Virus record (IMG/VR): IMGVR_UViG_3300035698_002699 | Location: 1 to 20,050 of that record | DNA: 20,050 nucleotides | Source of the DNA: a virus | Strand: one strand, 5' to 3' | Part shown: positions 4,485 to 20,050 of the stretch, one piece after another | How positions within the stretch are numbered: the stretch's first letter is position 1 | Layout: each line of letters starts with the position of its first letter | The notes under the pieces: generated by a model | What the model was told of the DNA's origin: nothing | The model's database searches: none | The model's input: the letters and a program-made list of their open reading frames with translations, nothing else | Program-made: the position numbers and the translations under genes

Positions 4485-4498
4485 GGGCATTTTTGCCC
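4485..4498 (+). promoter_or_regulatory. short hairpin in the leader of the 137-residue protein gene
   Basis: GGGCA and TGCCC pair perfectly around a TTTT loop and end four bases before the ribosome site GGAGA (4502-4506). It may protect or tune the message. It lacks a downstream T-run, so it is not a terminator. The rest of the 93-base gap holds only a second small inverted repeat, GGTAG-AAC-CTACC, near 4451-4463. Confidence 0.35.
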
Positions 4499-4513: not shown

Positions 4514-4927
4514 ATGAGAGAATCAGCACGAGAACTAGCAGTAGCACCAGCCACCGAAACCGCACTATACCAAGACCAAACCGAGATTGTTCGGGGCCTT
4601 GGCAAGCACCTTACCGAAGCGTTTATCGCTCAGGTTCTGGGAGCAGGCGGAGCAGGCGGAGCAATCCTCAACGTCCCTTTCGAGCCAGCTGTTATCGAAG
4701 TGTCCGAGGCTACCGGACCTACTCTTACTAAGTCGATTCGCGGTGGCGGTATGCCAGCTGCAGTTGAACTCAATATGATTTCGGGCGCTGTCAACGCCAA
4801 CCCTCCTGTGGTGACGCAGGTTGGCCCTGGTGCCTGGACCGTCACCTTGCCTACAGCGCTTGCCCCCGATGGGGATACGGCAACCGTCGTCATGTACGGC
4901 GTGAGCCACGCGGGCGGTAGTCTCTAA
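4514..4927 (+). CDS. putative small structural (decoration-type) protein, 137 residues
   Basis: The chosen start is ATG 4514, with GGAGA seven bases upstream; a TTG at 4493 lies before that ribosome site and is unlikely. The N-terminal third looks helical (QDQTEIVRGLGKHLTEAFIA) with a flexible GAGGAGGA stretch at about residues 43-50. The remainder is beta-rich and ends in WTVTLPTALAPDGDTATVVMYGVSHAGGSL-like strands, a style common in phage head decoration or fibre-attachment proteins, but no family is recognised. It contains one LTKS motif (residues 71-74), the recurring tag of this module. It sits between the terminase and the giant gene, and a head-surface or minor head role is inferred from position only. 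Confidence 0.75.
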   Translation: MRESARELAVAPATETALYQDQTEIVRGLGKHLTEAFIAQVLGAGGAGGAILNVPFEPAVIEVSEATGPTLTKSIRGGGMPAAVELNMISGAVNANPPVVTQVGPGAWTVTLPTALAPDGDTATVVMYGVSHAGGSL

Positions 4928-4951
4928 GACTACGACCGATCTAGGATGTGC

Positions 4952-4991
4952 CGCGACTTTCGCGATGGGAGGTAGCGTTGAGTCGCGCTAC
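4952..4991 (+). promoter_or_regulatory. two adjacent inverted repeats in the leader of the giant gene
   Basis: The first hairpin is CGCGA-CTT-TCGCG (4952-4964), perfectly paired. The second is GTAGCG (4972-4977) with CGCTAC (4986-4991) around eight bases. Neither has a following T-run, so termination is unlikely. They lie in the 106-base gap before the 2299-residue protein and could stabilise or regulate its message. The ribosome site AGGA (4, 6 bases before the ATG) is outside both stems. Confidence 0.35.
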
Positions 4992-5033
4992 TACGTTTAG
5001 AGTCGGTGGGTACTCTGAGCACTAGGATTATCG

Positions 5034-8000
5034 ATGAAAAAGAAGCTTAGTAAGTCTGAAAAAGCACGATGGTCCCCCTCAGAGCGAGGGCATCACCCTA
5101 GCTATTCGAGTGAGAAAGTTAGGCGTCTTGCCGCAAGCGGCATGGGCGAGATGCACGCAGTTGCGCACGCAGCCGAGCGCATGTTCCGCACTGAGAAAGA
5201 AGACCGCACGGGTAAGCTCCCCCGCGTGGCGCACACGCTACAGGACGTCACCCGAGGCCTAGGCCTGGACTCCGCAGCAGAGCAGCAGATTCAGAAGCTA
5301 GTGGGTGAATCGAACCCAGAGTTTCAGCCCAAGGGGCAAACCGTACGCATCTTCCACGCGCGCCAGCGCTTAGTAAGTACGATGCGCGAGAGTTGGAAAC
5401 ACCTCGACAGCATGGTGCGCGCTGAAGTGACACAGCGTGCGATGGCCTACTGGAAACACCACTACAAGACCGACCACTGGCGCAAACCCGCCATCCGTAA
5501 CGAAAGACCACCCATGAGCAAGTCTGATCCAGTCGCTGTCATCACCCTGGCTAAGCTTGAGGAGCTGGAAAAAGCGCAAGCCACGGGAGGTAAGTACTAC
5601 CGCCGAGTAGCTACGGGTAAGCCTAACCGACCTTGGAGGTACTACTACACCAAGGAGGCATATGAAAACGCACAGGGGTCAGACAGTCATTTGCACGGCC
5701 CTGACCTGAAGGAGAAGAACCCCGAGGAGCAGGCAGGCGAAGCCCTAGCGGACGCAATCATCAAGGCCATCCTTTCCGGCAACTCAGACATGATGGCTGG
5801 CTTGGTGGACTCGCTGGCTAACGCGGGCAGCGCAGTCACGGTTGAGGCGTGCATCAAGCGGCTATGGAAGGCGCTGGACGAAGCTAAGCGACAACTTGCT
5901 AACGCCACTAAGGGTGGCAAGAACTCAGGCCCTAAGGGCGGCGGCAAGCGTGGTCCTCGAAAGGCTACCGCTGCCGAACCCAAGAAGGTTAGCAAGTTGG
6001 CTACACTGGTAGCAGGCCTAAAGCTAGCGCTCGGCATGGCAGACAAGGTGCGTAAGCAACTAGGCGGCAAGATCAGCGCGCCAGTAGTAGCACCCCCTCC
6101 GTCTGGACCGTCGGAGTCAGGCACAGTCATGGCTAGCATCGCGGCAGCCAACAAGTTTGGCGTGAGCTTGGGCGTAGGCGACCAGATCAACACGCGCTAT
6201 GGACTCATGACGGTCGCAGGGCCTCCCACAGACCACGGGGGAGGTAGGGGTGTGCGCGTTCCTATGGAGGATAAGAGAGGCCGCCAGACGAACGTAGAAC
6301 TGCTTGTGTACGCCAGCGGCGGCGTGCACATGCTCTGGGGCGATCACGGTAACGGTGATCCAGGTGAGCTATCCCAGGTGAGCACGGGGCCAGCACCAGT
6401 AGAAGCAGTACCTACACCCGTACTAGACACCTACGGGTCTGACTTGAAAGTCCCGCCAGTCATGCTGGGGCTCAAAACGCAGGTTCTAGGCAAGCTCTCT
6501 GTGCTCACTGAGGCCACTCCTGGTACGGTGTCTATCTTGGGGGTGATGCTCGCTGATACCAGCCAGGCAGCAGCGCGCATCCCCGAGGGGACGCCAGCAC
6601 GCGCTTGGTTCGATAGCCAGATCACTACCCCTATTCAGCAGCGGCTGGCCTCCTTGCGGGCAGAGGCTAGCACTGGTGACGTTGAGCAAGACAAGTGGGT
6701 AGCTGCGCGGGCAACACTCGCGGGCAACACACTAGGCATAAACCTAGCGGTAGGGGGTACGTTCCAAACGAACGCAGGTACGTTCAAAGTCGTAGGAGAC
6801 CCGTACGAGCAAGCTAATCAGGGTGCCTCTATCCGGGTAGTGAACACAGACCCCACGAAGGTAGACCGAGCTAACGCGTTTTCCGTGGACAAGGCAGGCA
6901 GTTTGACGCTTACGACGTCATACGAACCTGTAGCTATCGAGTCTGCTAGTGCTGCGCCTGAGCCCAACACAGCGCGATGGGATCAACATAAGCCTATCGC
7001 CGCAGTTGCTAACTTGGAGAACATCGCAGACGAAGCGATTAGTAAGATGTCGCTGCCAACGGAGGAAAACTTAGCTGGTATTCAGCGTATGATCGACCTG
7101 GTGGACGGGGCTGCGAAGGAGATGTCCAGCCCTATGGATCAGAAGTGGGTCAGCAAGGTTGTGGTCTCAAAGCTGTATGACCACCTGCAAGATCTGCGAG
7201 ACAAGAAGGCTAAATACGGGGGTGCCAATCCCGAGGGACGGCCTGGCGTAGCACGGCGTATCAGCATGGCAGCACAGAACAAGTTCGGCGTAGACCTTAC
7301 GCCAGGTTCTAAGGTGACAAACGAGTGGGGTACGTTTGAGGTAGTTGCGGCGCCACAGGACTACAAGGGAGGTAAGGGCATCTTGGTACCAGTGGTCAGC
7401 ACAGGCAGGAACCGGAAACCTGCTGACATCTTGATCTACGCCAAGAGCGGCAACGTTGTCATGCATGGCGGCGGCGAAGGACACGGCGAAACAATCAGAG
7501 GTATGAAGCAGGCGGTAGACGCGCCAGCGCCTGCTGTTGCAGAGCCGACCGCTACGCCTACTGAGACCCCCGAAGAGCGGCAGGCGAAGTGGAAGGCCAG
7601 GCAAGTTCTCAAAGAAGAAGCACTTGCTGCCGAGCTAAAAGCAGAGCGTCTTGCCGCGTTTGCTGAGCGGGGCATCAACCGCGTAGGCCAGCTCGTAAAG
7701 GTGGACGGTAATGACGTACCTTTCGTAGTAGTAGGGCTGCATGACGTCTATCTGTCGCTGCGCTCAACCGAGGGAGGTAAACGTATCAACGTCAACATGG
7801 ACAAAGTGGCAGGACTCACTGGCACTGACCAGGATGTCACACGGGACATGCTCTCTCCTGCGGGGGCTAAGGACTACCTAGACGCGGTAGCCTCGTATGG
7901 GGCGAAGGACGACGGCGTTGCTCAAGCAGCCGCTGAGGCAGGCCGTGCTCGCTTCGAGGCTACTGCCGCTAAGCCCGAAGCAGCCACGCTAGGCGTCACT

Positions 8001-11000
8001 GTGTCAGAGCCAAACCATACTACCATTAGTGTAGCCAGCCCTGCGTCACTCATTACCACAGCGGTTCAGAACTGGCGTAGCGGTAACAAGGAGGCGGCAA
8101 TAGCTGCACTAGCTGCTCCGGAGACACTAGCCGATCTAGCAGCTGTGACTGCCGAGTTAGATAAGCAGGTGAACAAGCTATACGCTGATCCGACAGTAGA
8201 CCGCGCGACATTGACAGGACTTCGCGACGAACTAACAAGGCCCATCCAAGCAAAACAGAAGCAACTCGAAGAAGCTGCTAGCAAGGCTAGGGGCCCTGAG
8301 TTTGTGGGAGATAGCAAGTTCAACTTCAACATAAAAGAGGTGAATGGCCGCTTTGTGTTTGAAGGACTTAGCACTCTAGGCCGTAGGATAGCTTTCAAGA
8401 ACAACATCGCACGCAGAGGTACTGCCAACATAGAGCACGCCAAGCGTATCTATCACCTGATCTACGCTGCAGAGGAAAAGGCGCAACAAGAGAGCATGGA
8501 GCTGATCCATAACAAAAAGGAGCTATCAGAGGCTGATGTCTCCAAGTGGGGAGCACTTATGCGCTCCCCCGAAGGCACAGGGACGCATGTTATCAATAAG
8601 CGCAATAAATGGTATTTCAAGGATACCCCCTTCGCCGTCAAGGATGAGCTAAAGGCAGCTGGGGGCCGCTGGAGCAAGGCAGAGCGCGCTTGGTACTTCA
8701 GTGACAAGAAGTCAGCAGCTTATGCGTACATAAAAATAACGCCGCTGCTTGCCAGCATTGTAGCCGAAACCACCGCTGCCGCTGCGGAAGTAGAAGGGGA
8801 GCTAGATAGTAGGCGCAAGGCAGGCCTATCGATCTTTGGTGATACTAAGCGGTACCACGCAGTTATCGTAGCAGCAGGTGGTAAATGGGATAGCAGCAGC
8901 AAGCAGTGGCTTATGCCTTCGGCAGAGGCAAAGGCTCGTGTAGAACAGGCCATGCGTCCTGAGCCTAGGCTGGTAGTGCCTTTCCCTACTCAGGCACCTA
9001 CCGTGGCAGCTCCTACCGTGGCAGCTCCTACAGGCCCAGCTCGTGGCGAGATTGGCCACACAAGTAACGTTCTCCTTCCTCTAAATGGTGCACCACTCCT
9101 AGGTACCCCTGTACTCTTTAGAGGCAACTGGGTTGTTTTCAAAGCAACAGGTAGGAAGGAGTACATCACAGAGGATCATCCCTCCTATAAAGGCTCGCAC
9201 CTGTTAGGCCATGAGGAGACTATGGGTTTCTACGCTACGGCTACGGTAGTAGCTCCGCCAACTGCTAAGCCCGAAGCAGCCACGCTAGGTGTCACTAAAC
9301 CAGAGCCAAAGCTTATTGTCCCAAAAGCAGGTAACCGCGCGCCGAAGGGCACCCCGCGCGCGGACGCAAAACGAGCTGCACTAGAGTACTCCGCAGACCA
9401 TGAAGCCGTGAATGCTCGTGAGAGCAAGTTCATGCCTTTTGGTAGACACGTAAAGAACTCTGCAAAAGAGAAGGCGTTAGCTTGGAAGGGCGTCAAAGAA
9501 GCCATGCTCGATAAACGAGCAGACAAGCTCTTCACGAAGAAGTTCCTCAGCAAAGAGTTTCCACTAGACCTGGTAGGCGTGGTCCAAAGGGCGCCCGTAC
9601 AGAAGGCCCCTGCGGCGCTGTTAGCACACCTCATTATGGCCAAGTTTCCTGCGAAACCTCCTGAAGTTGTTGCAGGAAAACGTGCGTTTATTCTGCAAGC
9701 GACAGCTGCCTTTCCAATGTCACCTAGTGGGGGCAGGGACCCAGGCTACAACGAGGCACTTACTACCGCGCTAGCTCGTTGGGATGAGCTAGATGCTGCG
9801 GAAATAGAGGCATTTAGGGAGAGTGTAGTTGCTAAGTCCCGCGAAGATTACCTAGAAGCGTACAACGAGACTAAGGATATCATCGCAGAAGCTTTGGCAG
9901 GCTCCTACGAGGGTACTCCTGGTGAGGTTCACGAGTTAGTACGCGAGGAGATCAGAACCAAGTTGCGTAGCGCCGTGAGATTGTCAGGTCGCTGGACAAA
10001 CCCAGCTAAGTTTGAGGCGCTTGCCAAAGTGTCAAAAGCAACAACAGCGACTACTAAGTCAGGTCCTAGGATGACCACCAGACTCGTTGTAGAGACCGTG
10101 AAGAAGCAAGTAGGAAGCACTGCTACCGAGGACGTATCTCCGCGCCTGTCTGACGTTGTTATGGACATACTAGAGGGCAAGAGCGTACCGAAGGCGCTTG
10201 GTATCTCAAAGGAGAGAGCAGGCTACGCAGTCGATATCCGAGACATGTACGAAACGAACGAGCTTGCGCGCGTTGGCCCGGACCACGGCGTGAGCGACCC
10301 TTTCAAAGCAGAGGCTACGCTGGCTAAGGGTAACCTAGGGCTGGGCGGCATTACGTACGGCAACTCAATGACGGATGAGGAGCGTGCGCACCACCTACCA
10401 GAACTTGCTAACTCCATGTACGACCTGATGGACGTACTTGGGCTTCCGCCAGCAATGGCTGGTTACAACAACAAGCTTGCTATTGGCCTAGGTTCGAATG
10501 GTAAGGCAGGCGCACTAGCGCACTACGAGCCTAGTAACAGGTACATCAACTTGACCAGGGCCCAAGGAGCTGGCTCTCTGGCGCACGAGTGGGGTCACTT
10601 CTTTGACTATGAAGTGGGCAAGGCAGGCGGGAGCGATTTACCCATTACCGATAAGGAAAACGTCACCCCTATGGGCGAGGCTACAGCACAACTGTTGGAG
10701 TCTCCGGAGTTCCAGACGTACTTCACACGGCTGCGCAAGGCAGTTGCTTCGGCCAGTGGTATGAGCAGTCCTCAGGCTCGGTACTGGTTGAGCGATGAGG
10801 AGTGTTTTGCGCGCTGCTTTGAGAGGCACGTACAGCGCAAGCTGCACAAAGCAGGTCGTGAAAACACGTACCTAGCTGGTATCAAGCCCCGTGCGTACGG
10901 AGAGCACGGTTTCTGGCCTAACGATGACGAGTCTGACGGACTGGCCTCGCACTTCGAGAACATCATGGAGCAGTTCAAAAGTTCTGACTTGCTAAGAAAA

Positions 11001-11933: not shown

Positions 11934-11942
11934 AGTCTGATT

Positions 11943-13433
11943 ATGTATGAGAAAATCAAGCCCATCATGCGCGGTGTCGATCTACCCGAGGGTACGTTGA
12001 GCGCCAGCAACTACGTAGGTGATCCCGAAGAGGGCAAGTTCCTCGACTGGGGCACCACCTTTGCGAAGGCCGAGGTAGACGGTACTCCCAGTGAGCTTAG
12101 CAAGGCATACGCTACCGCGGAGCAGTTGCAAAACCACGGAGCTTTGGACATGCAGGCCGCTGTAGGCCCGTACGTGCCACCAAGCACAGAGGCTGTCATG
12201 GGTTCCATGGAGATTACTGGCGAGACTGTGGTGGACCTAGGCGACTCCCCAGTGGCTACAAATCCGCAGGCTGACAGCTGGATTGACTGGGATACGAACC
12301 TAGGCCTAGGCGGCGTGGGTGACGATGGAATGACCGGTTTCATGGAGTCCTCCAGCATGGGCCCTGGCACCGCACGTCCTGCTTTCAACTACGACGAGCA
12401 GGAGCCTGAGGATACTGACGACGAGACCGACGAGACGGCAAAGTCGATCAACGACAGCATCAACGATATGCGTAAGAGCTTCGGGGAGCTGCTTAGTAAG
12501 TCGGAGTATCTCAGCCGCAAAAAGGTCAACGGTAAGTGGCGTTACAAGTATGCGGCCACCAAGGACGAGCCGACTATCAACGCCGCGAAGGGAGTGGCAT
12601 ACAGTAAGCCTGTGCGCATTGGCTCTTCAGAAGGAGACACGCTGTTTGTCCGCAAGGTTTGGAGCGCTAAGGCCTCTAAGCAAAAGCACGGCATGCCTAA
12701 AGGTACTAGCTACGAGGCAATCATCGTAACAGAAGCAGGTCACCACTTTCCGATTGCTTATCGGAAGACTGCCAAGGAAGCGAAGGCACTCCTGATCAAC
12801 GAGTACACGCCCGAAGAAGGGCCAGCGAACATCGAAAAGGCGATGCCCCCATCGGTACAGCAATCAATGTACCAGTCAGACGTGTACGGCCGTGAACTTA
12901 CTAAGAGCCTATCGGTGTATGAGCAGGCGGACGCAGTCATTCCGGATGAACAGCTGGCTTCCTACATGACTACGTTCGTGGAAGTTGCCGCTTCCGAGGG
13001 AGCAGGTGCTCGGGAGATCATGGGCGCACTTGTGAAGAGCATCCCTGGTAATGCCAACCTTGCGCGTGCTGCGGATATGTACAACGTGAGCCTTGGTACC
13101 GTGGAAGGGCTGCTTAGCAAGTCCGACCAGTCAGGCACGTACACTTCGGCTGTTACGGGCTTCGTTCCTGAGCCTGCCCGCACGGTGGGCGCTTCCATGT
13201 CAGCAAGGCCAGACACCAGCGGTGGGGGATTCATCAAGAGTGAAGTACTCGATCATAAGTCAGCACTTACTAACCGTAGGGCGGCAGCCCAGACGGCAGC
13301 CTGGCGAGTTACTACGGGCGATGAGCCTGTAGTTGCTAACGTGTCTAGCAAGTGCCCAATCCACAACGGTTTGGATCTTGGCAAGTCCGCTAACGTTGCC
13401 AACCCATACGCGCCTTGTACGTGTAACCTCTAA
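11943..13433 (+). CDS. unknown head-module protein with many KS tags, 496 residues
   Basis: No known family is recognised. The N-terminal 150 residues are acidic and low in structure (EEPEDTDDETDET-like near 155-165). Residues 184-203 carry LSKSEYLSRKKVNGKWRYKY, shared with the giant protein. A mixed alpha/beta part follows (about 210-290), then helical segments interrupted by LTKS (319-322), LVKS (363-366) and LSKS (391-394). The C-terminus has CPIH...CTC, a possible small zinc site. Nine KS pairs occur, far more than expected for this length. It starts nine bases after the giant gene's stop, with a weak ribosome site, and ends three bases before the portal ATG, so it is part of the same operon. 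A cargo, internal head or portal-associated role is inferred from position and tags. Confidence 0.85.
   Translation: MYEKIKPIMRGVDLPEGTLSASNYVGDPEEGKFLDWGTTFAKAEVDGTPSELSKAYATAEQLQNHGALDMQAAVGPYVPPSTEAVMGSMEITGETVVDLGDSPVATNPQADSWIDWDTNLGLGGVGDDGMTGFMESSSMGPGTARPAFNYDEQEPEDTDDETDETAKSINDSINDMRKSFGELLSKSEYLSRKKVNGKWRYKYAATKDEPTINAAKGVAYSKPVRIGSSEGDTLFVRKVWSAKASKQKHGMPKGTSYEAIIVTEAGHHFPIAYRKTAKEAKALLINEYTPEEGPANIEKAMPPSVQQSMYQSDVYGRELTKSLSVYEQADAVIPDEQLASYMTTFVEVAASEGAGAREIMGALVKSIPGNANLARAADMYNVSLGTVEGLLSKSDQSGTYTSAVTGFVPEPARTVGASMSARPDTSGGGFIKSEVLDHKSALTNRRAAAQTAAWRVTTGDEPVVANVSSKCPIHNGLDLGKSANVANPYAPCTCNL
12516..12548 (+). repeat. basic-aromatic module RKKVNGKWRYK (copy in 496-residue protein)
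   Basis: This is the partner of 11109-11141, ten of eleven residues identical. It directly follows LSKSEYLS (residues 184-191). Sharing between two unrelated proteins suggests a transferable tag rather than part of one fold. Confidence 0.75.
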
Positions 13434-13436
13434 GCC

Positions 13437-15110
13437 ATGACAATCATCAAAAAAGGGCTCGCCGAGACGGCGCGCGGTCTCGCTGAATGGGTATCCAAAA
13501 GTGAGGACGACGTACCGCAGTCGGAGATGATCGACCTGCTATCCAAGTCTGGAATGGCAACGGCGAGTCCAACCACCGAAAAACCCCGAGGCATGTACCA
13601 CGACCCCTACGCGGTTATGGACTGGGGTGGGTGGCGCCAGCGGCCAAGTTCTTTGACGTACGCAACGCTGGCACAGATGAGCGAGGCGAATACGGCCATC
13701 GCCGCGATTATTCAGCTACGTGTGAACCAGGTAGCAGCGTTCTGCCGTCCACAGCAGGGACGTTACGACAAGGGTTTCCGCATCTCCTTGCGTGACCGTC
13801 GCGACAAGAACAAGGGCATGAGCAAGGGTGAGCAGAAGGAAGCCGAGCGTATTGAGCGGTTCCTCGAAACAACTGCGGTACTGCTTCCAGACGAGAGGCC
13901 TGCGGACCGAGACAGCTTTCGGCAGTTCTGTAAGAAGGGCGTGCGGGATACGCTCACCTACGATCAGTGGTGCTATGAGAAGATTCGTGACCGCGCTGGC
14001 AGGCCTTCTCGCTTCCATGCACTGCCTAGTGAGACGATTCGACCTGCGGTCAACGAGATGGAGCACCTGAGCCCGAAGGAGCTTCGGGAGCGTGTCTCTC
14101 ACGTGCAGGTCTACGAGAACTCTGTGATCTCTGAGTTCGCCTCTGACGACATCGCTTGGTGTGTCATGAATCCGCGCTCGGCGTTGCACGTGAACAGCTT
14201 TGGACTGTCCCCCGTGGAGCAGCTCGTGCGACTCGTGACGGCATGGCTCTACGGCTTCACGTACAACCAGAACTTCTTCAGCCAGGGAAGCGCTATCAAG
14301 GGCTTGCTGAACATCAAGGGCACCATCCCTGACAGGCAGCTCCGAAGCTTCCGCCGTATGTGGTACTCGATGATTTCGGGCGTGAACAACGCCTGGAAGA
14401 CTCCGATTCTGAACTCGGAAGAAGTGCAGTGGATTTCCATGCACTCCACTAACCGCGAGATGGAGTACGCACAGTGGATGGATTGGCTTACTAAGTTGAT
14501 CTGTGCGGTGTACGGCGTGGACCCTATTGAGATCAACTTCATCTTCGGAGGTGGGGGCTCTGGTGACGGTGGCAGCATGTTCGACTCACGCCCGAACGCG
14601 GCTGAGGTAACGGAGTCGAAGGACAAGGGGCTCCTACCGCTAATCAACCACATTGAAGACAGCGTGAACTCGCACATGATCTGGGACTTGAATCCAGACT
14701 TTGAGTTCAACTTCTCAGGCTTCGACTCTGCGTCAGAAGCTAAGGAGCGCGAGGGACTTGCTAGGGACGTGACTACGTACCGAACCATCAACGAAGTCAG
14801 AGCATTCATGGATGAGGAGCCACTACCAGGCAAGCTTGGGGACATCATCCTCAACCCTGTCTACCAGCAGATGGCTGCAGCCGGAGCAGCACCTGCTGAA
14901 GAAGGTGGAGGGGGCTTGCCCTTCGACTTTGGTGCTGACGAAGACACAGACAGCGACGACGAGCTAGGCGAGTCAGACACTGCGTTCGACAAGCAACAGG
15001 CTTCGGAGTCAGGGGGTGCAGATGCAACAGAGAAGTCAATCACGAACTCTCTGCAAAAATCACAACGCGTTAGCAACAGGCTAGCCGAAATAGACAACTG
15101 GCTAGTTTAG
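13437..15110 (+). CDS. portal protein, 557 residues
   Basis: Forms the ring at the head vertex through which DNA passes, and is the docking site for the terminase. Length and sequence course fit an HK97-type portal: an N-terminal segment, a core with SEANTAIAAIIQLRVNQVAAF (about 81-101), TYDQWCYEKIRD, the ALPSETIRP strand, NPRS...GLSPVEQLVRLVTAWLYGF (about 243-279), and YGVDPIEINF (359-368) before a Gly-rich loop FGGGGSGDGGSMF. The C-terminus is acidic (GADEDTDSDDELGESD). VSKS (19-22) and LSKS (35-38) lie in the extreme N-terminus and LQKS (539-542) in the extreme C-terminus, outside the core. The ATG follows the previous stop by three bases with no good ribosome site, so translational coupling is likely. 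Confidence 0.9.
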   Translation: MTIIKKGLAETARGLAEWVSKSEDDVPQSEMIDLLSKSGMATASPTTEKPRGMYHDPYAVMDWGGWRQRPSSLTYATLAQMSEANTAIAAIIQLRVNQVAAFCRPQQGRYDKGFRISLRDRRDKNKGMSKGEQKEAERIERFLETTAVLLPDERPADRDSFRQFCKKGVRDTLTYDQWCYEKIRDRAGRPSRFHALPSETIRPAVNEMEHLSPKELRERVSHVQVYENSVISEFASDDIAWCVMNPRSALHVNSFGLSPVEQLVRLVTAWLYGFTYNQNFFSQGSAIKGLLNIKGTIPDRQLRSFRRMWYSMISGVNNAWKTPILNSEEVQWISMHSTNREMEYAQWMDWLTKLICAVYGVDPIEINFIFGGGGSGDGGSMFDSRPNAAEVTESKDKGLLPLINHIEDSVNSHMIWDLNPDFEFNFSGFDSASEAKEREGLARDVTTYRTINEVRAFMDEEPLPGKLGDIILNPVYQQMAAAGAAPAEEGGGGLPFDFGADEDTDSDDELGESDTAFDKQQASESGGADATEKSITNSLQKSQRVSNRLAEIDNWLV

Positions 15111-15120
15111 AGGAGACACC

Positions 15121-15891: not shown

Positions 15892-15928
15892 GCGCGCATT
15901 GACGGCGAAAGCCGCGTAAGCTTCGCGC
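15892..15928 (+). promoter_or_regulatory. structured leader of the MuF gene, start codon next to a stem
   Basis: GCGCG (15892-15896), right after the stop codon, can pair with CGCGC (15924-15928), right before the ATG. Inside, CGGC-GAAA-GCCG (15903-15914) forms a hairpin with a GNRA tetraloop. No Shine-Dalgarno sequence is seen in the gap. The fold would place the start codon at the base of a stem, so translation may depend on coupling or on a factor that opens it. Confidence 0.45.
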
Positions 15929-17698
15929 ATGGCTCAAAAGAAAAGAGGAGCGCCTAAAAAGGCATCACTGGTCCGTCCTGCTAAGGGTACGGGCCATGCC
16001 GTTTTGGATGACTCCCTAGATGCAGTAGACATCGCGTATACAGCGACCATCGACAGGATGTTCAAGGAGCTGCTCAAGTATATCAGCAAGGAAATCGTAC
16101 CAGGGGCCAAACTTAGCAAGTCCACGTACCCAACCGACGAGATGATTGCTTTCGCCACGAAGGACGATGGCAAGTTCCCCTCGGACCCTACGCGCGAGCG
16201 GTTCACGCAGCAGATGAGCCTGCTCACCCCTGCACAGCTTGAGACCGTGAAGCAGATTATCAAGGACTACCATGGAGCCTTCGCGGTGGGCGTCCTTGGA
16301 CCCGACTCCATCCCGAGGGCAGAGCTAGAGCGACTAATAAAGGTGGGTATCATTCCGGGAGACCTGGCCTTTGTGTTTCAAGCGGAACCAGGTGAGAGTG
16401 CTCCCCCTTCGATGGCCATCACGGACTTAGCATTTGAGTACGGTAGGCACCGCGGAGATGCTCGCCAGAAAGGCACCTCTGTAGAGCTGGACATGGCGAA
16501 GTTCCTGGAGCACTTGGAAGCGACCCATAACCCGCTGAGCGAGATGGAGCGCAACGCGATGGCCTGGAGTCGCTACAACGCAGGCGAGCACATGCGTAAC
16601 GCAGGTGACCGTTTCGCTAGCAAGGTAGCAACATCCATTCTGGACGAGGACGGCGAGCAACGCAGGCGCTACGTAGGTGTAGTAACTCGCGAGCTGGAGA
16701 CCAACATCGAGAAGCGTGAGAGCTGGCGCAAGCTCGCCAGCGAGATCGGTCACGCAACAGAGGACTGGTCTAGGGATATGCAGCGGCTAGCTGCCACAGA
16801 GACGCAGTTTGCAGTCGAGGAAGGAGCAATGCGGGCGATTGCTAAGGATCGAGACCCAGAAGACATCCGAGTTGCTAAGATTCCGAATGCAGACGCGTGC
16901 AAGACCTGTATCAAGCTCCACCTAACCGCTGGTGCTGGTTCTCCTCCGCGTATCTTCGGAATGAAGGAGCTTCAAGCGAACGGCACGAACGTTGGTAAGA
17001 AGCAGGCAGACTGGCAGGCCACCGTGGGACCCGTACACCCTTGGTGTTTCTGTACCCTTACAGAGGTGCCCGATGGCTGGGCCTTCGATGAGGAAGGGGA
17101 TCTAGTACCTGAGGTACTACTACAGAAGTCAGGCGACCGATTAGACCACGCAGCGCTACGTCTTGCTAAGTCGAGTGCTACTACGATGACGTTTGGCGCT
17201 TCGGTTCCTCGCAAGGGGGTAGTAGCTCGCGTGTCCGATCCGCGGCTACTTGAAGTAGTGGAGCAAGTCATCGCCGAGACCCCTGACGCCATCTTTGACT
17301 CCAAGGTGGGCGTGACTCTGATTACCGTGGACATGCCTCGCGCACAGAACCCGCTACAGGAGCACGACTACGCGTACTGGACTGCCAACGAGATACGGTT
17401 GAACCAGTCCCTGTCTCCGGAAAAAGCAGCACATGTACTCAAGCATGAGCTAGGGCACTCGCTGAATGTCTACCTCATGAACCAGCTGGGCGGACCCGAG
17501 CCCGTGCGGGCGTGGCATGACAAGCTGTGGGCAGTCTCAGAGCCCGAGGGCTTCGTGAGTGCTTACGCGAAAAAGCTTCCCATCGAGAATGCGGCGGAAG
17601 TGTCACGCATGTACCTTTATGAACGAGCGAAGCTCATGGTCAGTTACCCGCTTCAGTTCGCGTTCGTGCACAAGTACTACCGAGGGATTTTCCAGTGA
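15929..17698 (+). CDS. MuF-type head morphogenesis protein fused to a zinc metallopeptidase, 589 residues
   Basis: A minor head protein of the Mu gpF/SPP1 gp7 family, normally bound to the portal and packaged in few copies. LSKS (62-65) lies in the N-terminal part. The MuF domain (about 245-395) shows RLAATETQFAVEEGAMRAI, ADACKTCIKLH with C324 and C327, GKKQADW, and HPWCFC with H370, C373 and C375, a probable zinc site. A linker with LQKS (398-401) and LAKS (412-415) follows. The C-terminal domain (about 425-589) is a predicted zincin: KHELGHSLN with H506, E507 and H510, and SAYAKKLPIENAAE, where E557 or E553 may be the third ligand. Fusion of toxin-like enzymes to MuF is known in temperate phages. 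No ribosome site is seen. Its stop overlaps the next start. Confidence 0.9.
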   Translation: MAQKKRGAPKKASLVRPAKGTGHAVLDDSLDAVDIAYTATIDRMFKELLKYISKEIVPGAKLSKSTYPTDEMIAFATKDDGKFPSDPTRERFTQQMSLLTPAQLETVKQIIKDYHGAFAVGVLGPDSIPRAELERLIKVGIIPGDLAFVFQAEPGESAPPSMAITDLAFEYGRHRGDARQKGTSVELDMAKFLEHLEATHNPLSEMERNAMAWSRYNAGEHMRNAGDRFASKVATSILDEDGEQRRRYVGVVTRELETNIEKRESWRKLASEIGHATEDWSRDMQRLAATETQFAVEEGAMRAIAKDRDPEDIRVAKIPNADACKTCIKLHLTAGAGSPPRIFGMKELQANGTNVGKKQADWQATVGPVHPWCFCTLTEVPDGWAFDEEGDLVPEVLLQKSGDRLDHAALRLAKSSATTMTFGASVPRKGVVARVSDPRLLEVVEQVIAETPDAIFDSKVGVTLITVDMPRAQNPLQEHDYAYWTANEIRLNQSLSPEKAAHVLKHELGHSLNVYLMNQLGGPEPVRAWHDKLWAVSEPEGFVSAYAKKLPIENAAEVSRMYLYERAKLMVSYPLQFAFVHKYYRGIFQ

Positions 17699-18369
17699 AA
17701 GTGAAACTTGTAAAACCCGCACGTGGCGAGGGCTACTCGGTAGAAGCGTACCCGCTAGGCGAGTACATGCCTTACCAGGGTATGCGTATTGCCATTGAGA
17801 GCCCTGCAGGCAGCAAGCGTTACTGGTACGACTCCAACACCAAGGAGAGCGGCGAGACCGTCATGACGTACCCGTACGGGTTCATCATCGGAACCATGGG
17901 CGCTGACGGTGACGAAATCGACTGCTACGTGGGCCCTTACCGTGGCAGCCGTAAGGTGTTCATCATCAACCAGCGGAAGCTCAAGCGAAAGAACGCATTC
18001 GCCGAGCACAAGGTAATGCTGGGCTTTGAGACCGAGGAACAGGCCCGAGAAGCTTACCTGGGCAACTACAACGAAGTAGGTCCCCAGCTACTAGGCAGCC
18101 TGCGGGAGTGGACCCTTAGCAGGTTCATCAAGTGGGCGTACCGAGGTACTAAGTCCCGTCCAGTCCGTAAATCAGTACCTTACGCCGTGTACCACACTGC
18201 TAGGGACGCACGGTTTGCTAAGTCCCATCTTGCTAACCAATACCCAGAAACGGATCTATTTGACCTGCCATATTCAGAGGTTCCCCAGGAGCTACGTAAA
18301 GCTGGACACCCTACAGAAGGCTGGTACTTGCTAGGTCCCAAGCCGCTCCGACTAGAAGTGGGGCGCTAG
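17695..18369 (+). CDS. inorganic pyrophosphatase-like protein, 224 residues
   Basis: Residues 71-77 read DGDEIDC, an exact match to the soluble inorganic pyrophosphatase signature D-[SGDN]-D-[PE]-[LIVMF]-D-[LIVMGAC], with D71, D73 and D76 as likely metal ligands. The surrounding YPYGFIIGTMGADGDEIDCY, then YVGP and VFIINQRKL, fits a short phage-type pyrophosphatase domain (InPase) known from polyvalent proteins. It continues with FAEHKVMLGFETEEQAREAYLGNY and ends near residue 150. The known enzyme family hydrolyses pyrophosphate to phosphate. VRKS (157-160) and FAKS (174-177) separate this domain from a 50-residue C-terminal part of unknown role. GTG overlaps the preceding TGA by four bases, with GAGGG eight bases upstream. 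The true substrate is not proven. Confidence 0.8.
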   Translation: MKVKLVKPARGEGYSVEAYPLGEYMPYQGMRIAIESPAGSKRYWYDSNTKESGETVMTYPYGFIIGTMGADGDEIDCYVGPYRGSRKVFIINQRKLKRKNAFAEHKVMLGFETEEQAREAYLGNYNEVGPQLLGSLREWTLSRFIKWAYRGTKSRPVRKSVPYAVYHTARDARFAKSHLANQYPETDLFDLPYSEVPQELRKAGHPTEGWYLLGPKPLRLEVGR

Positions 18370-18588
18370 GTGGGTTGTCCACACTGCGGCGCGAACGTAT
18401 TTCGGCCAAATGCTAACGGTAGTAAAATCAAGGCTAGAACCAAGATCTTAGTACTTCACAAATCTGGCGAGGTTGAGATCAACTGCAGCGACTGCGGAAA
18501 AGGTGTGCTTTTACCGCTGACTATCGACAACGGAAGTTTGGAGTTGAAGAAGGCCAGGGAGCCGAAATACCTAGTTCCGAAACCTTGA
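18370..18588 (+). CDS. small zinc-ribbon protein, Com-like, 72 residues
   Basis: Two Cys pairs, CPHC (3-6) and CSDC (about 39-42), with GEVEINCSDCGKGVLLP, form a zinc ribbon. The second half recalls the Com protein of phage Mu, which binds an RNA stem-loop and switches on translation of mom. Similarity is limited to this pattern, so a regulator of translation is only a suggestion; a general nucleic-acid-binding role is as likely. The GTG start follows the previous TAG with no gap, so it is translationally coupled. The TTGACA of a candidate promoter overlaps its stop codon. Confidence 0.75.
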   Translation: MGCPHCGANVFRPNANGSKIKARTKILVLHKSGEVEINCSDCGKGVLLPLTIDNGSLELKKAREPKYLVPKP

Positions 18589-18616
18589 CAGCAGTTTAGG
18601 GCCACGGTCATATCTA
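18585..18616 (+). promoter_or_regulatory. candidate promoter before the protease gene
   Basis: A perfect TTGACA (18585-18590) overlaps the stop of the zinc-ribbon gene. Possible -10 elements are TCATAT (18608-18613, 17-base spacing, three of six matches) or TATCTA (18611-18616, 20-base spacing). The box is good but the -10 is not, so the assignment is tentative. Confidence 0.35.
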
Positions 18617-18647
18617 TACCGAGGCCTAGTCAACTTAGTGACTTTTG

Positions 18648-18684
18648 AGGCGGGAATCCCAGGAATGGGGTCCTCGCCTTTTTT
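18648..18684 (+). terminator. intrinsic terminator or attenuator before the protease gene
   Basis: AGGCGGG (18648-18654) pairs with CCTCGCCT (one G-T pair), and an inner CCC/GGG stem closes around AGGAAT. A run of six T bases (18679-18684) follows directly. This is a good Rho-independent terminator shape and ends only 14 bases before the ATG of the next gene. It probably ends or reduces transcription from the upstream operon, or attenuates transcripts started at the candidate promoter. Confidence 0.7.
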
Positions 18685-18698
18685 CGTTTCTGGAACCC

Positions 18699-19427
18699 AT
18701 GGACAACTTTTCCTTCGATTTTGCGTTTGAAACCTTCGAGAAATCGGAAGCGACGGGGCGTGAGCGCCGTATTGGTGGGATTGTTTCCACAGGTCACCTG
18801 GATAAGCAGCAAGAGCGCTTGATCCAGGAAGGCTTGGACTTCGGTCCATTCCTCAAGTCGGGCTGGTTCAATGACAACCATCTCAAGGCAACAGGTAAGG
18901 CCGTGGGCGAGCCTGAGATGGCGGAGATGCGGACTCTCGCCGACGGCACTAAGGGCTGGTACGTCGAGGGCTACCTGTACTCAGACCATGGTCCTGCCGA
19001 TGAAATCTGGTCCATGGCCAAGAGCCTGGAGCGGTCTGGTAGCGCTAGGCGCCTAGGCTTCAGCGTTGAGGGCCAGATCACTGAGCGCGATAGGGGCGAC
19101 GCCTCGACTGTCCGGAAAGCCATTGTCCGGGAAGTAGCGGTCACTCGCTGTCCTGTGAACGGGGAAACGCGCCTCGACACGCTGGCTAAGTCTTTGTCTG
19201 TAGGCTCTGGAGCGGCCCCTAATGGGACCCCAGGCGATGCTAGCCCCCTCATGCGCGAGTCCCTCGAAGGGATCGACGCTGAGGAAGAGAAACGTCGGAA
19301 GAAGAAAAAGAACCGACTTACTAAGAGCGAGGCTGTGGCCTTTCTCATGACTCGGGACCCACGGGTTACCGAGGAGTTTGCAACTCGGATTATCGAGTTC
19401 ACAGAGCGGCACTACGGCGTCGCGTGA
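18699..19427 (+). CDS. prohead protease, XkdF-like (Peptidase S78-type), 242 residues
   Basis: A serine protease expected to act inside the prohead on scaffold and capsid precursors. The core matches XkdF-type proteins: GRERRIGGIVSTGHLDKQQE, then LDFGPFLKSGWFNDNHLKATGKAVG, LGFSVEG and VREVAVTRCPVNGETRL. H61, S122 and possibly E145 are the candidate catalytic residues. FEKS (13-16) precedes the core, LAKS (162-165) follows it directly, and LTKS (207-210) lies beyond a basic Arg/Lys-rich stretch in the tail, fitting self-removal of both ends. Start ATG 18699 is preferred over TTG 18645, which would place coding sequence inside a terminator hairpin. The ribosome site is weak. A position before the scaffold/capsid gene is standard for this family. 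Confidence 0.85.
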   Translation: MDNFSFDFAFETFEKSEATGRERRIGGIVSTGHLDKQQERLIQEGLDFGPFLKSGWFNDNHLKATGKAVGEPEMAEMRTLADGTKGWYVEGYLYSDHGPADEIWSMAKSLERSGSARRLGFSVEGQITERDRGDASTVRKAIVREVAVTRCPVNGETRLDTLAKSLSVGSGAAPNGTPGDASPLMRESLEGIDAEEEKRRKKKKNRLTKSEAVAFLMTRDPRVTEEFATRIIEFTERHYGVA

Positions 19428-19441
19428 TCAACGGAGAAAAC

Positions 19442-20050
19442 ATGAGTGATAAAAACAAGACCGGGGTCACGGTTGAGAGCATCGACGCTTCTCTACAGGC
19501 CCTCGTAGAAGTAGCGGACGCAACCGACCTGGTGAAAGCCTATGGCGGCGTTTCCATCGACAGGAACGGCCACACTGACGAGCGCGGAGCCACTAGCGGT
19601 GGTTACGCCGAAGCTGGTGACATGGGCGGTATCGACAAGATGATGATCGCCAAGATGAGCGCTTCGCTTATCGACCAAGGCTTCTCAGCTTCCGACATCG
19701 CAGCGTTCATGTCTAAGGACGAGGACGAGGACGAGTACGAGGACGAAGACGAAGAGGAGATGGAAGGAAAGATGAAGGGCAAAAAGCCTGCTTTCCTTGG
19801 GAAGAAGGGCTCCAAGTACGAGTACGAGGACGAGGACGAAGCTGAGAAGAGCCTTGACGCTGCCATGCTCAAGTCCTTCACAGACAACTCTGACATCGCC
19901 GAGGGTTATGACGTCTCGGGCTTTCTCTCCGAGATGGTTGAGACCACTTCCGCTAGCCTTTCGGGCCTTCAGAAGAGCATCAACTCCCACCAGAACAAGC
20001 AGACCAACGTCAACCGACAGATGGCTGCTGCTCTTCATGGTCTCGGCGAG
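19442..20050 (+). CDS. acidic head protein, probable scaffold or capsid precursor, partial (203 residues, no stop in window)
   Basis: ATG 19442 follows GGAG (19433-19436) and the frame stays open to the last base, so the 3' end lies outside the window. The product is very acidic: DEDEDEYEDEDEEE follows FMSK (89-92), and a second block EYEDEDEAEK lies at about 128-137, separated by a Lys/Gly-rich stretch. MLKS (142-145) and LQKS (176-179) follow. The segment after 140 looks helical. A position right behind the prohead protease, high charge and helical content suit a scaffolding protein, or the N-terminal scaffold-like part of a capsid precursor. No conserved capsid fold is visible in the part seen. 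Confidence 0.75.
   Translation, partial: MSDKNKTGVTVESIDASLQALVEVADATDLVKAYGGVSIDRNGHTDERGATSGGYAEAGDMGGIDKMMIAKMSASLIDQGFSASDIAAFMSKDEDEDEYEDEDEEEMEGKMKGKKPAFLGKKGSKYEYEDEDEAEKSLDAAMLKSFTDNSDIAEGYDVSGFLSEMVETTSASLSGLQKSINSHQNKQTNVNRQMAAALHGLGE

Follow-up and report, generated by a model that had tools for sequence, protein, structure and literature searches.

The window, as we call the whole stretch of 20,050 nucleotides analyzed here, carries a viral head-gene cluster in which a hydrophobic-x-Lys-Ser (phi-x-K-S) tetrapeptide recurs. We found 29 [LIVMF]-x-K-S sites between positions 4493 and 20050, and all 18 sites listed in a first-pass annotation, made from the sequence alone, were confirmed at their coordinates. 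The relevant genes and sites are given below; a slash marks the bond of the putative cut, and fractions are homologs retaining the motif.

5034..11933, +, giant polyvalent protein with an LPD1 domain (PF18796, E 2e-12)
5046..5057, +, LSK/S near the N-terminus of the giant protein (K7), just before the first conserved domain; 7 of 8, by eye
5514..5525, +, MSK/S of the giant protein (K163), past the first conserved domain; weak support, 3 of 11
11943..13433, +, g7, an unnamed head-cluster protein; 7 motifs vs 0.58 expected
12492..12503, +, g7 LSK/S (K186); 5 of 5
12897..12908, +, g7 LTK/S (K321); 5 of 5, four of them K/G
13377..13388, +, g7 LGK/S (K481); 5 of 5, local identity 0.50
13437..15110, +, portal protein (PF04860, E 9.7e-24; 38.7% identity to the SPO1 portal)
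13491..13502, +, portal N-terminal VSK/S (K21); 10 of 21 aligned
13539..13550, +, portal N-terminal LSK/S (K37); 11 of 21 aligned
15051..15062, +, portal C-terminal LQK/S (K541 of 557); 22 of 22 (16 K/S), local identity 0.23
15929..17698, +, MuF-like minor head protein (phrog_115, E 7e-7)
16112..16123, +, MuF N-terminal LSK/S (K64); 12 of 12 aligned, local identity 0.22
17695..18369, +, pyrophosphatase-like (InPase) head-cluster protein, g11 (PF18823, E 8e-32)
18163..18174, +, VRK/S directly past the InPase domain (K159); 7 of 8, local identity 0.25
18454..18465, +, LHK/S of a small zinc-ribbon-like protein; identical LHKS in 12 of 12, local identity 0.59
18645..19427, +, XkdF-like prohead (head maturation) protease (phrog_1028, E 1.1e-46), likely ATG at 18699
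18735..18746, +, FEK/S bordering the protease on its N-terminal side (K15, counted from the ATG); 10 of 10, eight of them K/A
19182..19193, +, LAK/S bordering the protease core on its C-terminal side (K164); K/S in 10 of 10
19191..19268, +, protease segment copying the major capsid protein's N-terminal arm (SLSVGSGAAPNGTPGDASPLMRESLE), beginning directly after the putative cut
19317..19328, +, LTK/S preceding the C-terminal helices of the protease; 4 of 10
19424..20050, +, scaffold-like protein truncated by the contig end (phrog_15087 head scaffolding, E 1.3e-3)
19841..19852, +, scaffold AEK/S (K142; Ala at P3); [LIVMFA]xK[SAG] in 9 of 9, local identity 0.11
19967..19978, +, scaffold LQK/S (K184); 8 of 9, local identity 0.23

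Enrichment and specificity of the motif

At the 29 sites, K-S is encoded by 10 different codon pairs, and the 12-mers fall into 27 distinct sequences; therefore, the signal resides at the protein level, as the first-pass annotation had claimed from varied codons, and a nucleotide-level motif is ruled out. That annotation had also counted about 29 KS pairs outside the giant protein, roughly three times the chance level, and had proposed that they reflect a prohead protease code. In the head genes of the window without the giant protein (2,807 residues), 29 KS pairs were present vs 11.3 in shuffled sequences (2.6-fold, z 5.8), and this claim held. For [LIVMF]xKS the count was 24 vs 2.59 in shuffles (z 13.7), which none of 500 shuffles matched, a result favoring the proposed code. 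The giant protein alone showed no clear enrichment (5 vs 2.5 in shuffles), and TerL together with the three genes preceding it contained 0 motifs vs 0.8 by shuffling.

When all gapped residue triples were scanned without bias, L.KS ranked first (15 vs 0.77). Within the window, phi-x-RS, phi-x-KT and phi-x-KG were not enriched (KT, 0 vs 1.95; KG, 3 vs 2.95), phi-x-KA was weakly enriched (7 vs 3.5), and the neighboring patterns KA, KT, RS, SK, phi-KS and phi-xx-KS were unenriched or only weakly so. Sites of the T4 type, phi-x-E, were near or under expectation in the window (observed/expected: ES 5/3.8, EA 4/5.2, EG 4/4.5, ET 4/3.1, ED 1/3.2, EE 3/4.3), which rules out a phi-x-E code in its head proteins. 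As a positive control, [LI]xE was enriched in T4 gp22 (16 vs 5.7); in the unbiased pair scan of T4, I.E ranked second and L.E fourth, neither being first.

Location of many sites at termini or domain borders, also claimed previously, held on average. In five domain-bearing proteins, whose borders we drew from profile and BLAST matches, 11 of 14 sites fell outside conserved domains (binomial p 0.012).

Protease, scaffold and conservation of sites

Presence of an XkdF-like protease, inferred in the first-pass annotation, was supported by the phrog_1028 profile, which covered residues 32-208, and by 38.8% identity to SPO1 gp3.2; no Pfam match was found at E <= 0.1. Alignment of 19 proteases revealed 16 invariant columns, including D35, H61, S122 and K164 (numbering from 18699), and we take H61 and S122 to be the active-site His and Ser. 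The structure model of the protease was poor (pLDDT 56, with low confidence for residues 1-19), gave no Foldseek match at E <= 0.001 and was inadequate for judging the S1 pocket. A related-locus search using the protease yielded 92 stretches, none of which was confirmed.

The protease contained 5 motifs vs 0.25 expected (p 7e-6). The motif was present both before and after its core, with K15 and K164 each kept in 10 of 10 homologs; in the 19 proteases K164 was invariant and S165 nearly invariant. Cleavage at FEK/S is predicted to release the protease's own 15-residue propeptide, which is unproven in this phage. The segment resembling the capsid arm has its counterpart in relatives, whose capsid protein reads LRK/ALVAGSDVNDPGVAPGVGFPLRTESLE. 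In addition, residues 15-67 of the SPO1 capsid protein matched positions 170-227 of phrog_1028, and residues 159-206 of the phiSA012 protease matched the capsid chain (E 1e-6). The incomplete scaffold-like gene contained 2 motifs vs 0.37 (p 0.055). Its homologs (17 stretches in related loci, 9 left after length filtering and duplicate removal) mostly had FQK/S at K142 and IRK/S at K184.

Site conservation was assessed in homologs aligned over >=35% of the window protein, with duplicates removed. Eleven of the 24 motifs outside the giant protein were retained in >=80% of aligned homologs, several of them in linkers that otherwise diverge, whereas 4 were retained in 40-52% and 9 in <=20%. Relative to its surroundings, the motif Lys had a conservation of +0.22 (22 sites), compared with -0.08 for other Lys residues (121; p 6e-4) and +0.02 for Lys preceding S/A/G without the motif (35). 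For MuF K64, K/S itself was found in just 2 of the 12 aligned homologs, and 6 more homologs were gapped; Lys at InPase-like K159 was present in 8 of 8. The LHK/S of the zinc-ribbon-like protein could possibly be kept for folding instead. At K7 of the giant protein, phi-x-K[SAG] was seen by eye in 7 of 8 homologs with the same N-terminus and by automatic alignment in 2 of 7; these homologs were read stop to stop, their start codons being unverified. Internal sites of the giant protein were not conserved in the homolog alignment. The MuF-like protein also had a weak metallopeptidase-like match under the cut-off (PF06114, E 0.018).

Several candidates were rejected as cut sites. Some of the sites listed in the first-pass annotation are probably uncut, as MuF K400 (1 of 18 homologs), MuF K414 (0 of 14) and g5 K80 (0 of 5) were not conserved. 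Protease K126 (0 of 10), scaffold K150 (0 of 9) and g7 K393 (0 of 5) were also excluded, as was protease K71, which was retained in 8 of 10 homologs yet lies within the folded core. KS pairs lacking a hydrophobic P3 were rejected in the portal (K533, 1 of 22), in g7 (K167, 0 of 4; K439, 0 of 5) and in the InPase-like protein (K153, 0 of 8).

The motif in related phages and at capsid N-termini

The Bacillus phage SPO1, Chryseobacterium phage MA9V-3 and a series of contigs (G001 onward) were used as related records. In 5 of 9 such records, the most motif-rich ORF of the whole record was a scaffold or a protease-scaffold fusion beside the protease (p 2.7e-10 in SPO1, 5e-11 in MA9V-3, 6e-6 in G001, 2e-5 in G002 and 2e-4 in G003; Poisson values, uncorrected for 66 to 186 ORFs per record). 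In a panel of 15 phages, scaffolds of 14 Herelleviridae contained 94 motifs vs 9.36, and the proteases 58 vs 6.44 (46 vs 5.66 without the MA9V-3 fusion). Portals were mildly enriched (19 vs 10.45 in 14 phages), and the gene downstream of the capsid gene contained 0 motifs vs 2.59 in 13 panel phages. The panel phages are mutually related and their motif counts are not independent events. In most records, scaffold denotes the ORF between the protease and capsid genes; within the panel, only SPO1 has an annotated scaffold, to which the EalM-132 annotation notes a similarity. For LpeD the scaffold was called by us as an ORF, and for MA9V-3 the sheath was assigned only by a guess from position.

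Head genes were compared with other genes of the same contig. Values were 5.7 v 0 in the window (0.8 expected), 3.9 v 1.0 in G002, 3.5 v 0.85 in G003, 3.4 v 0.56 in G008 and 2.1 v 0.84 in G001; the difference was small in G005 (1.66 v 1.38), and G007 had no head KS excess (1.41 v 1.65). In non-head genes of related contigs the motif was mostly near chance. This contrast and a scan of other phages with XkdF-like proteases had both been suggested in the first-pass annotation; the former supports the code clearly in 5 of 7 records, weakly in G005 and not in G007, and the latter supports it as well. We drew the borders of head clusters on the basis of gene order; the cluster of G005 takes up the greater part of its contig. 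Because our simple ORF caller lost the G007 protease to an antisense ORF, lost both protease and scaffold of G008, and fused an upstream stretch onto the G005 scaffold, the record-wide ranking and the head/non-head contrast are weak for these three contigs. Frame-by-frame reading gave 2 and 4 motifs for the protease and next ORF of G007, and 3 and 4 for those of G008; these numbers were left out of record-wide counts.

In homologous capsid proteins, the mature N-terminus on deposit lies at a Lys/Ser bond. The A511 capsid mat_peptide begins, in the deposited annotation, at S24 after K23, the cut being A-L-K/S with Ala at P3, and staphylococcal capsid chains in PDB entries 9row, 9rox and 9roz begin at S25 of VVK/SFQ. 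The window capsid gene lies beyond the contig; in 6 of 6 related contigs, L-x-K/A was found at the homologous place, and these contigs have a separate scaffold-like gene and a short capsid N-terminus ahead of the site. At P1', Ser can likely give way to Ala or Gly, above all in the capsid protein and among relatives, and Ala is likely accepted at P3, the A511 capsid being an example. The A511 scaffold had just 2 [LIVMF]xKS vs 0.80 expected despite its Lys/Ser capsid cut. Lb338-1 deviates at P3 in both scaffold (A.KS, 4 vs 0.46) and protease (2 vs 0.14); the P3 readings for Lb338-1 and A511 are post hoc. Passages in PMC12886913, PMC12282133 and PMC5923470 were silent on such cuts.

SPO1-type Herelleviridae (SPO1 gp3.2, A511 prohead protease, staphylococcal Pro) share the phrog_1028 protease profile with the window, and the panel and related contigs have the same gene order of protease, scaffold and capsid. 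The same phi-x-K/S in scaffold and protease and the same Lys/Ser (Ala/Gly) capsid site are present in these phages. In contrast to them, in the window the portal and protease genes are separated by MuF, InPase-like and zinc-ribbon genes, and the portal is preceded by g7 and the giant polyvalent gene, all of which carry the motif; P1' in its relatives is often Ala, unlike in the SPO1 type. For cultured SPO1-type phages, the capsid cut was the sole cut in the deposited data that we found. Kinship of the window phage to Herelleviridae rests on the SPO1 portal and protease identities alone.

The established HK97 capsid cut, Lys103/Ser104, reads FNK/S, and the first 106 residues contain 3 motifs vs 0.32 (p 0.002); the motif was not enriched in HK97 gp4 itself (1 vs 0.34). 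The window is not HK97 gp4/gp5-like: its scaffold-like gene is separate, whereas in HK97 the scaffold is fused to the capsid protein as an N-terminal delta domain (PMC9024508). All 5 gp4-type phages examined other than HK97 had no phi-x-KS within capsid residues 1-120; thus, the code is not general for the gp4 group, and its universality across HK97-type phages is rejected. The protease of the gp4-type phage FZ41 contained 3 motifs vs 0.47.

Interpretation and alternatives

We consider it very likely (probability about 0.87) that phi-x-Lys/Ser serves as the code by which the XkdF-like prohead protease recognizes and cleaves its substrates, in the absence of proteolysis data for this phage. The first-pass interpretation is largely supported by indirect tests and capsid N-termini, with cleavage unproven here. 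In the proposed mechanism, sites would have Leu, Val, Ile, Met or Phe, and sometimes Ala, at P3, Lys at P1, and Ser at P1', where Ala or Gly would be tolerated. The protease (18645-19427) would enter the prohead, probably aided by its C-terminal copy of the capsid N-terminal arm, and free itself at one site before and one after its core. It would then shred the scaffold at several sites, trim the N-terminus of the capsid protein, and trim portal, MuF, InPase-like, g7 and giant proteins at termini or between domains, and these cuts would let the scaffold exit and DNA enter. For the giant protein, packaging and trimming of the N-terminus are predicted, again without proof of cleavage in this phage. 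Cutting of the remaining sites, the order of cuts and packaging of each substrate are inferred.

It remains possible that the code is real but that only scaffold, protease and capsid protein are cut, other motifs being mostly uncut or structural. Enrichment in the panel was strongest in scaffold and protease, compared with 19 vs 10.45 in portals, 9 of 24 window sites were unconserved, and the zinc-ribbon LHKS lies in a well conserved stretch. However, portal K541 (22 of 22), MuF K64 (12 of 12), g11 K159 (7 of 8) and g7 K186 and K321 (5 of 5 each) were kept at local identities of 0.22-0.32, and g7 K481 was also kept (local identity 0.50). Short repeated motifs can act as docking sites, and the spread of this one over many different head proteins would fit an uncut docking or packaging tag binding capsid, scaffold or protease. 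Such a tag is unlikely given that deposited mature capsid N-termini lie precisely between Lys and Ser, and that the residue after Lys belongs to the motif as Lys does (phi-x-KT and phi-x-KG showing no excess).

Reading of the motif by a host protease or modification, e.g., phosphorylation of Ser after Lys, would agree with the charged surroundings of panel scaffold and protease sites. This is very improbable, considering the concentration in head genes, the peak that 5 of 9 records show in the gene adjoining the phage protease, and Lb338-1, a lineage in which the altered P3 residue is the same in scaffold and protease. A composition or repeat artefact of Lys- and Ser-rich disordered regions can be all but dismissed: scaffolds are indeed abundant in Lys, Glu and Ser, but shuffling preserves composition, and the triple scan, the lack of more than weak enrichment of neighboring patterns and the diversity of 12-mers (27 among 29 sites) reject it.

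Returning to the protease code, single Lys/Ser capsid cuts were already known, and a lineage-wide phi-x-Lys/Ser code was not found in the open-access literature searched. A bolder joint reading, toward which the balance tips only slightly, combines a Lys-specific code shared by Herelleviridae, Chryseobacterium and Bacteroides phages and the uncultured window clade; trimming, in the window clade, of giant polyvalent proteins and packaged enzymes at N-terminal propeptides as well; and a self-delivering protease that enters by means of its copied capsid arm. With prohead-protease codes, the protein contents of a phage head and the cut positions in them can be predicted from sequence. If true, propeptide trimming of packaged proteins would make the motif a sequence-only detector of in-head proteins. 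The code would also mark proteins that are packaged and ejected. The code would have been easily overlooked in a large family that includes therapy-cocktail phages (PMC5618024): maturation cuts would resemble digestion cuts and, by inference, escape tryptic proteomics because trypsin cleaves the same bond after Lys.

The proteases T4 gp21 and SPN3US gp245 recognize a hydrophobic residue or Ala at P3, any P2 and a fixed P1, and protease, scaffold and internal proteins are processed at many sites, with Ser preferred at P1' by the SPN3US enzyme (PMC10052503, PMC5694885). P1 is Glu in these systems and Lys in the window lineage, whose code likely follows the same logic with Glu swapped for Lys; if so, P1 specificity varies while P3 and P1' preferences persist. 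Pro of phage P1 cuts the capsid precursor before Ser (E120/S121; PMC9024508), its P1-site residue being Glu, unlike the Lys of the window lineage. Phage P1 also packages large Dar proteins, which may be compared with the giant protein of the window.

Hydrophobic-x-Lys-Ser in head and other genes

The head proteins of this phage share a recurrent motif, phi-x-Lys/Ser (phi is Leu, Ile, Val, Met or Phe at P3; the slash marks the proposed cut between P1 Lys and P1' Ser), which very likely represents the code of the XkdF-like prohead protease. This reading, which the first-pass annotation had proposed from sequence alone, is supported by comparative sequence evidence and by deposited mature N-termini of homologs. 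Cutting in this phage and of non-capsid substrates is inferred.

Genes of the window, in order
Three small ORFs, at the start of the window, before the terminase
1568-4420, large terminase subunit (TerL) with intein
g5, small protein, after the terminase
5034-11933, giant protein of 2,299 residues with LPD1 domain, after g5
g7, 496-residue protein, after the giant protein and before the portal
Portal protein, after g7
g9, 256-residue protein, between the portal and the MuF-like protein
MuF-like protein, then pyrophosphatase-like protein, then small zinc-ribbon-like protein, after g9
XkdF-like head maturation protease, after the zinc-ribbon-like protein
Scaffold-like protein, last gene, truncated by the contig end

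The window, an entire IMG/VR record, is 20,050 bases long. Bacillus phage SPO1 (Herelleviridae) showed 38.7% (portal) and 38.8% (protease) identity to the window over matched parts, and 28 uncultured viral loci had portals 57-71% identical to the window portal (best segment). The TerL intein carries a LAGLIDADG endonuclease (PF14890, E 9.5e-12; PF14528, E 1.2e-18), and the splicing-domain match stops at residue 473, where SKSATF begins.

All 18 motif positions listed previously were correct, and 11 further motifs were found. The claimed enrichment was confirmed and was stronger than claimed once the hydrophobic residue was counted in: [LIVMF]-x-K-S occurred 24 times in head genes without the giant protein, whereas shuffling within proteins predicted 2.6 (z 13.7). 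A scan of gapped residue triples with no preset motif ranked L.KS first for over-representation in this set (15 versus 0.77). Ten different codon pairs encoded K-S of the motifs. In window head proteins, no enrichment was detected for phi-x-KT, phi-x-KG or phi-x-RS, and phi-x-KA showed only a slight excess (7 versus 3.5). The giant protein alone was not significantly enriched in phi-x-KS (5 versus 2.5) and was enriched in phi-x-KA (13 versus 5.6). The motif was absent from g9, and from TerL and the three preceding genes (0.8 expected).

The same motif density in tail or replication genes would, according to the first-pass annotation, refute the proposal. Five of seven records were clearly against this condition, one (G005) weakly and one (G007) not. 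Observed/expected ratios of phi-x-KS were 5.7 in head genes and 0 elsewhere in the window (only 0.8 expected there). Among related contigs, ratios for head cluster versus rest were 2.1 versus 0.84 (G001, 101 kb), 3.9 versus 1.0 (G002, 108 kb), 3.5 versus 0.85 (G003), 3.4 versus 0.56 (G008) and, weakly, 1.7 versus 1.4 (G005); G007 had no head excess (1.4 versus 1.65). No motif occurred in the SPO1 genes for sheath, tube and tape measure or in two reductase genes, and tail gene 12.1 had one.

In a blind ORF scan of whole records, the strongest excess was in the scaffold adjoining the protease in 5/9 records (SPO1, Chryseobacterium phage MA9V-3, G001, G002 and G003), including 11 motifs in 244 residues of the SPO1 scaffold (p 2.7e-10) and 12 in the MA9V-3 protease-scaffold fusion (p 5e-11); p values were uncorrected for ORF number. 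The scaffold of A511 was not the top ORF (p 0.19). In G001-G003, scaffolds were assigned by position and 35-39% identity to the window scaffold-like protein; a PHROGs search of two of these ORFs gave a weak match for one and none for the other. The protease/scaffold region of G005, G007 and G008 was garbled by the ORF caller. When protease and scaffold-like ORF were read frame by frame, G007 had 2 and 4 motifs, respectively, and G008 had 3 and 4. Within the terminal 42 residues (first and last), phi-x-K[SA] density per 1,000 residues was 6.5 in head-cluster ORFs (69 in 10,584) versus 1.3 in other ORFs (27 in 20,076); internal densities were 4.1 and 1.2, respectively, all without composition correction.

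Capsid N-termini and cultured relatives

In the A511 record, the mature capsid protein is annotated from residue 24 (...EDALK/SFTTGYG, Lys23 / Ser24), with Ala at P3; the source is reportedly Loessner and Scherer 1995. The capsid chain in PDB 9row, 9rox and 9roz differs at a single position from phiSA012 capsid residues 25-463 and begins at Ser of VVK/SFQTGYG; PDB 5lii and 9vel, also matched, contain full-length capsid chains. MA9V-3 and 14 Herelleviridae made up our 15-phage panel. A pattern for x-x-K-[SAG] with a following Gly located the site in 14/15 of their capsid proteins (Ser in 7, Ala in 6, Gly in 1); P3 was Ala in A511 and Leu, Ile, Val or Met in the other 13. By eye, the site of Lactobacillus phage Lb338-1 was AVK/A. 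Capsid sites were LRK/A or LHK/A in 6/6 related contigs, and LQK/A in Bacteroides phage DAC16.

Panel scaffolds contained 94 motifs versus 9.4 expected (14 phages) and panel proteases 58 versus 6.4 (15 phages; 12 motifs from the MA9V-3 fusion). Counts were 19 versus 10.5 in portals (14 phages), 12 versus 6.7 in capsid proteins (15 phages), 3 versus 2.0 in sheaths (3 phages; all three motifs in an MA9V-3 gene assumed to be sheath) and 0 versus 2.6 in the gene downstream of the capsid gene, called 'tail fiber protein' in many records (13 phages). In MA9V-3 (L032:11989-13587), protease and a motif-rich scaffold-like region are joined in one 532-residue protein.

V.KS was the leading triple in pooled panel scaffolds (51 versus 3.9), and P3 was Leu, Ile, Val, Met or Phe at 151/203 distinct KS sites of panel proteases and scaffolds. 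Applied to T4 as a positive control, this counting method retrieved the known hydrophobic-x-Glu code, with [LI]xE 16 versus 5.7 in gp22 and 7 versus 2.6 in gp21 (protease). When pairs in four T4 core proteins were scanned blindly, I.E ranked second and L.E fourth. Lb338-1 was an apparent exception, with 1 [LIVMF]xKS versus 1.65 in scaffold plus protease; there, the scaffold had 4 A.KS versus 0.46 (p 6e-4) and the protease 2 versus 0.14 (p 0.008). Thr at P3 was commoner in A511 than in others (T.KS 4 versus 0.34), and Semele had A.KS 3 versus 0.54 beside 10 [LIVMF]xKS. These P3 readings are post hoc; the Lb338-1 change, present in both enzyme self-sites and substrate, could fit a shift in protease specificity.

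Site conservation and a capsid-like protease segment

Retention as [LIVMFA]-x-K-[SAG] among aligned homologs was 80% or more for 11 of the 24 motifs that lie outside the giant protein, 40-52% for 4 and at most 20% for 9. Homolog alignments showed that conserved sites stand out within poorly conserved linkers.

Conserved motif Lys in window proteins
Portal K541, kept in 22/22 homologs, local identity 0.23
MuF K64, kept in 12/12 aligned homologs, 6 gapped
Scaffold K184, kept in 8/9 homologs
Scaffold K142, Ala at P3 in the window, kept in 9/9 homologs, local identity 0.11
Protease K15 and K164, each kept in 10/10 homologs, local identity about 0.5
g7 K186, K321 and K481, each kept in 5/5 homologs
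InPase-like K159, kept in 7/8 homologs

The other four KS pairs without hydrophobic P3, an internal control, were kept in 1/22, 0/4, 0/5 and 0/8 homologs. Conservation excess over surroundings was +0.22 at the 22 testable motif Lys and -0.08 at 121 non-motif Lys (Mann-Whitney p 6e-4), and control values were +0.02 for 35 motif-less Lys before S/A/G and -0.02 for 35 Lys with hydrophobic P3 and no Ser. P1' was frequently Ala or Gly in relatives, in agreement with the capsid site.

In the window protease, the C-terminal site is followed directly by a segment (19191-19268; LAK/SLSVGSGAAPNGTPGDASPLMRESLE) that copies the N-terminal arm of the capsid protein, cleavage site included; relatives have LRK/ALVAGSDVNDPGVAPGVGFPLRTESLE at the capsid site. 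The same overlap was found in SPO1, where capsid residues 15-67 matched phrog_1028 170-227 in a profile search, and in staphylococcal phages, where phiSA012 protease 159-206 matched a PDB capsid chain (E 1e-6). Annotators were already aware of this similarity, since the Terranova record remarks on a motif common to capsid and protease. We infer that the capsid-like segment may bring the protease into place as the shell assembles and would afterwards be removed by cutting at the same code. Protease D35 (18801-18803), after the first predicted strand, was invariant in 19/19 proteases; it is a possible candidate for binding P1 Lys, on which the low-quality structure model gives no guidance.

Known protease codes and the giant protein

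The T4 protease cuts at hydrophobic-x-Glu. The SPN3US protease cuts after hydrophobic/Ala-x-Glu with Ser preferred at P1' (PMC10052503), and the phage P1 capsid protein is cut at E120/S121 (PMC9024508). For T4- and SPN3US-type systems, propeptides have been described as targeting sequences (PMC5694885). Compared to T4 and SPN3US, the window code shares P3 and P1', with Lys instead of Glu at P1. The HK97 capsid protein is cut between Lys103 and Ser104. This cut reads FNK/S in sequence, with two more motifs upstream (3 versus 0.32, p 0.002), whereas the HK97 protease gp4 showed no enrichment (1 versus 0.34). Among five other gp4-type phages sampled, phi-x-KS was absent from the first 120 capsid residues in 5/5, and one protease had 3 motifs versus 0.47. 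No description of a general Lys/Ser code was found in the CC-licensed literature searched; an earlier description elsewhere is not excluded.

An earlier proposal holds that polyvalent proteins are packaged and undergo processing, with metallopeptidase domains as the likely agents (PMC5512222); their processing by prohead protease is a possibility that we add here. Internal sites of the giant protein showed no conservation in the homolog alignment. At its N-terminus, phi-x-K-[SAG] lay just ahead of the first shared domain in 7/8 homologs by eye (LSK/S in the window; LSK/A, LHK/A, MHK/G, FRK/A, FVK/S, IRK/A and MLK/A in others); these N-termini come from stop-to-stop reading frames, and automatic alignment credited 2/7 only. 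Short G-K-W-x-Y-rich modules (GGKYYRR..GKPNRPWRY; KKVNGKW twice) are repeated in the giant protein and g7 (5586-5642, 11112-11132 and 12519-12539).
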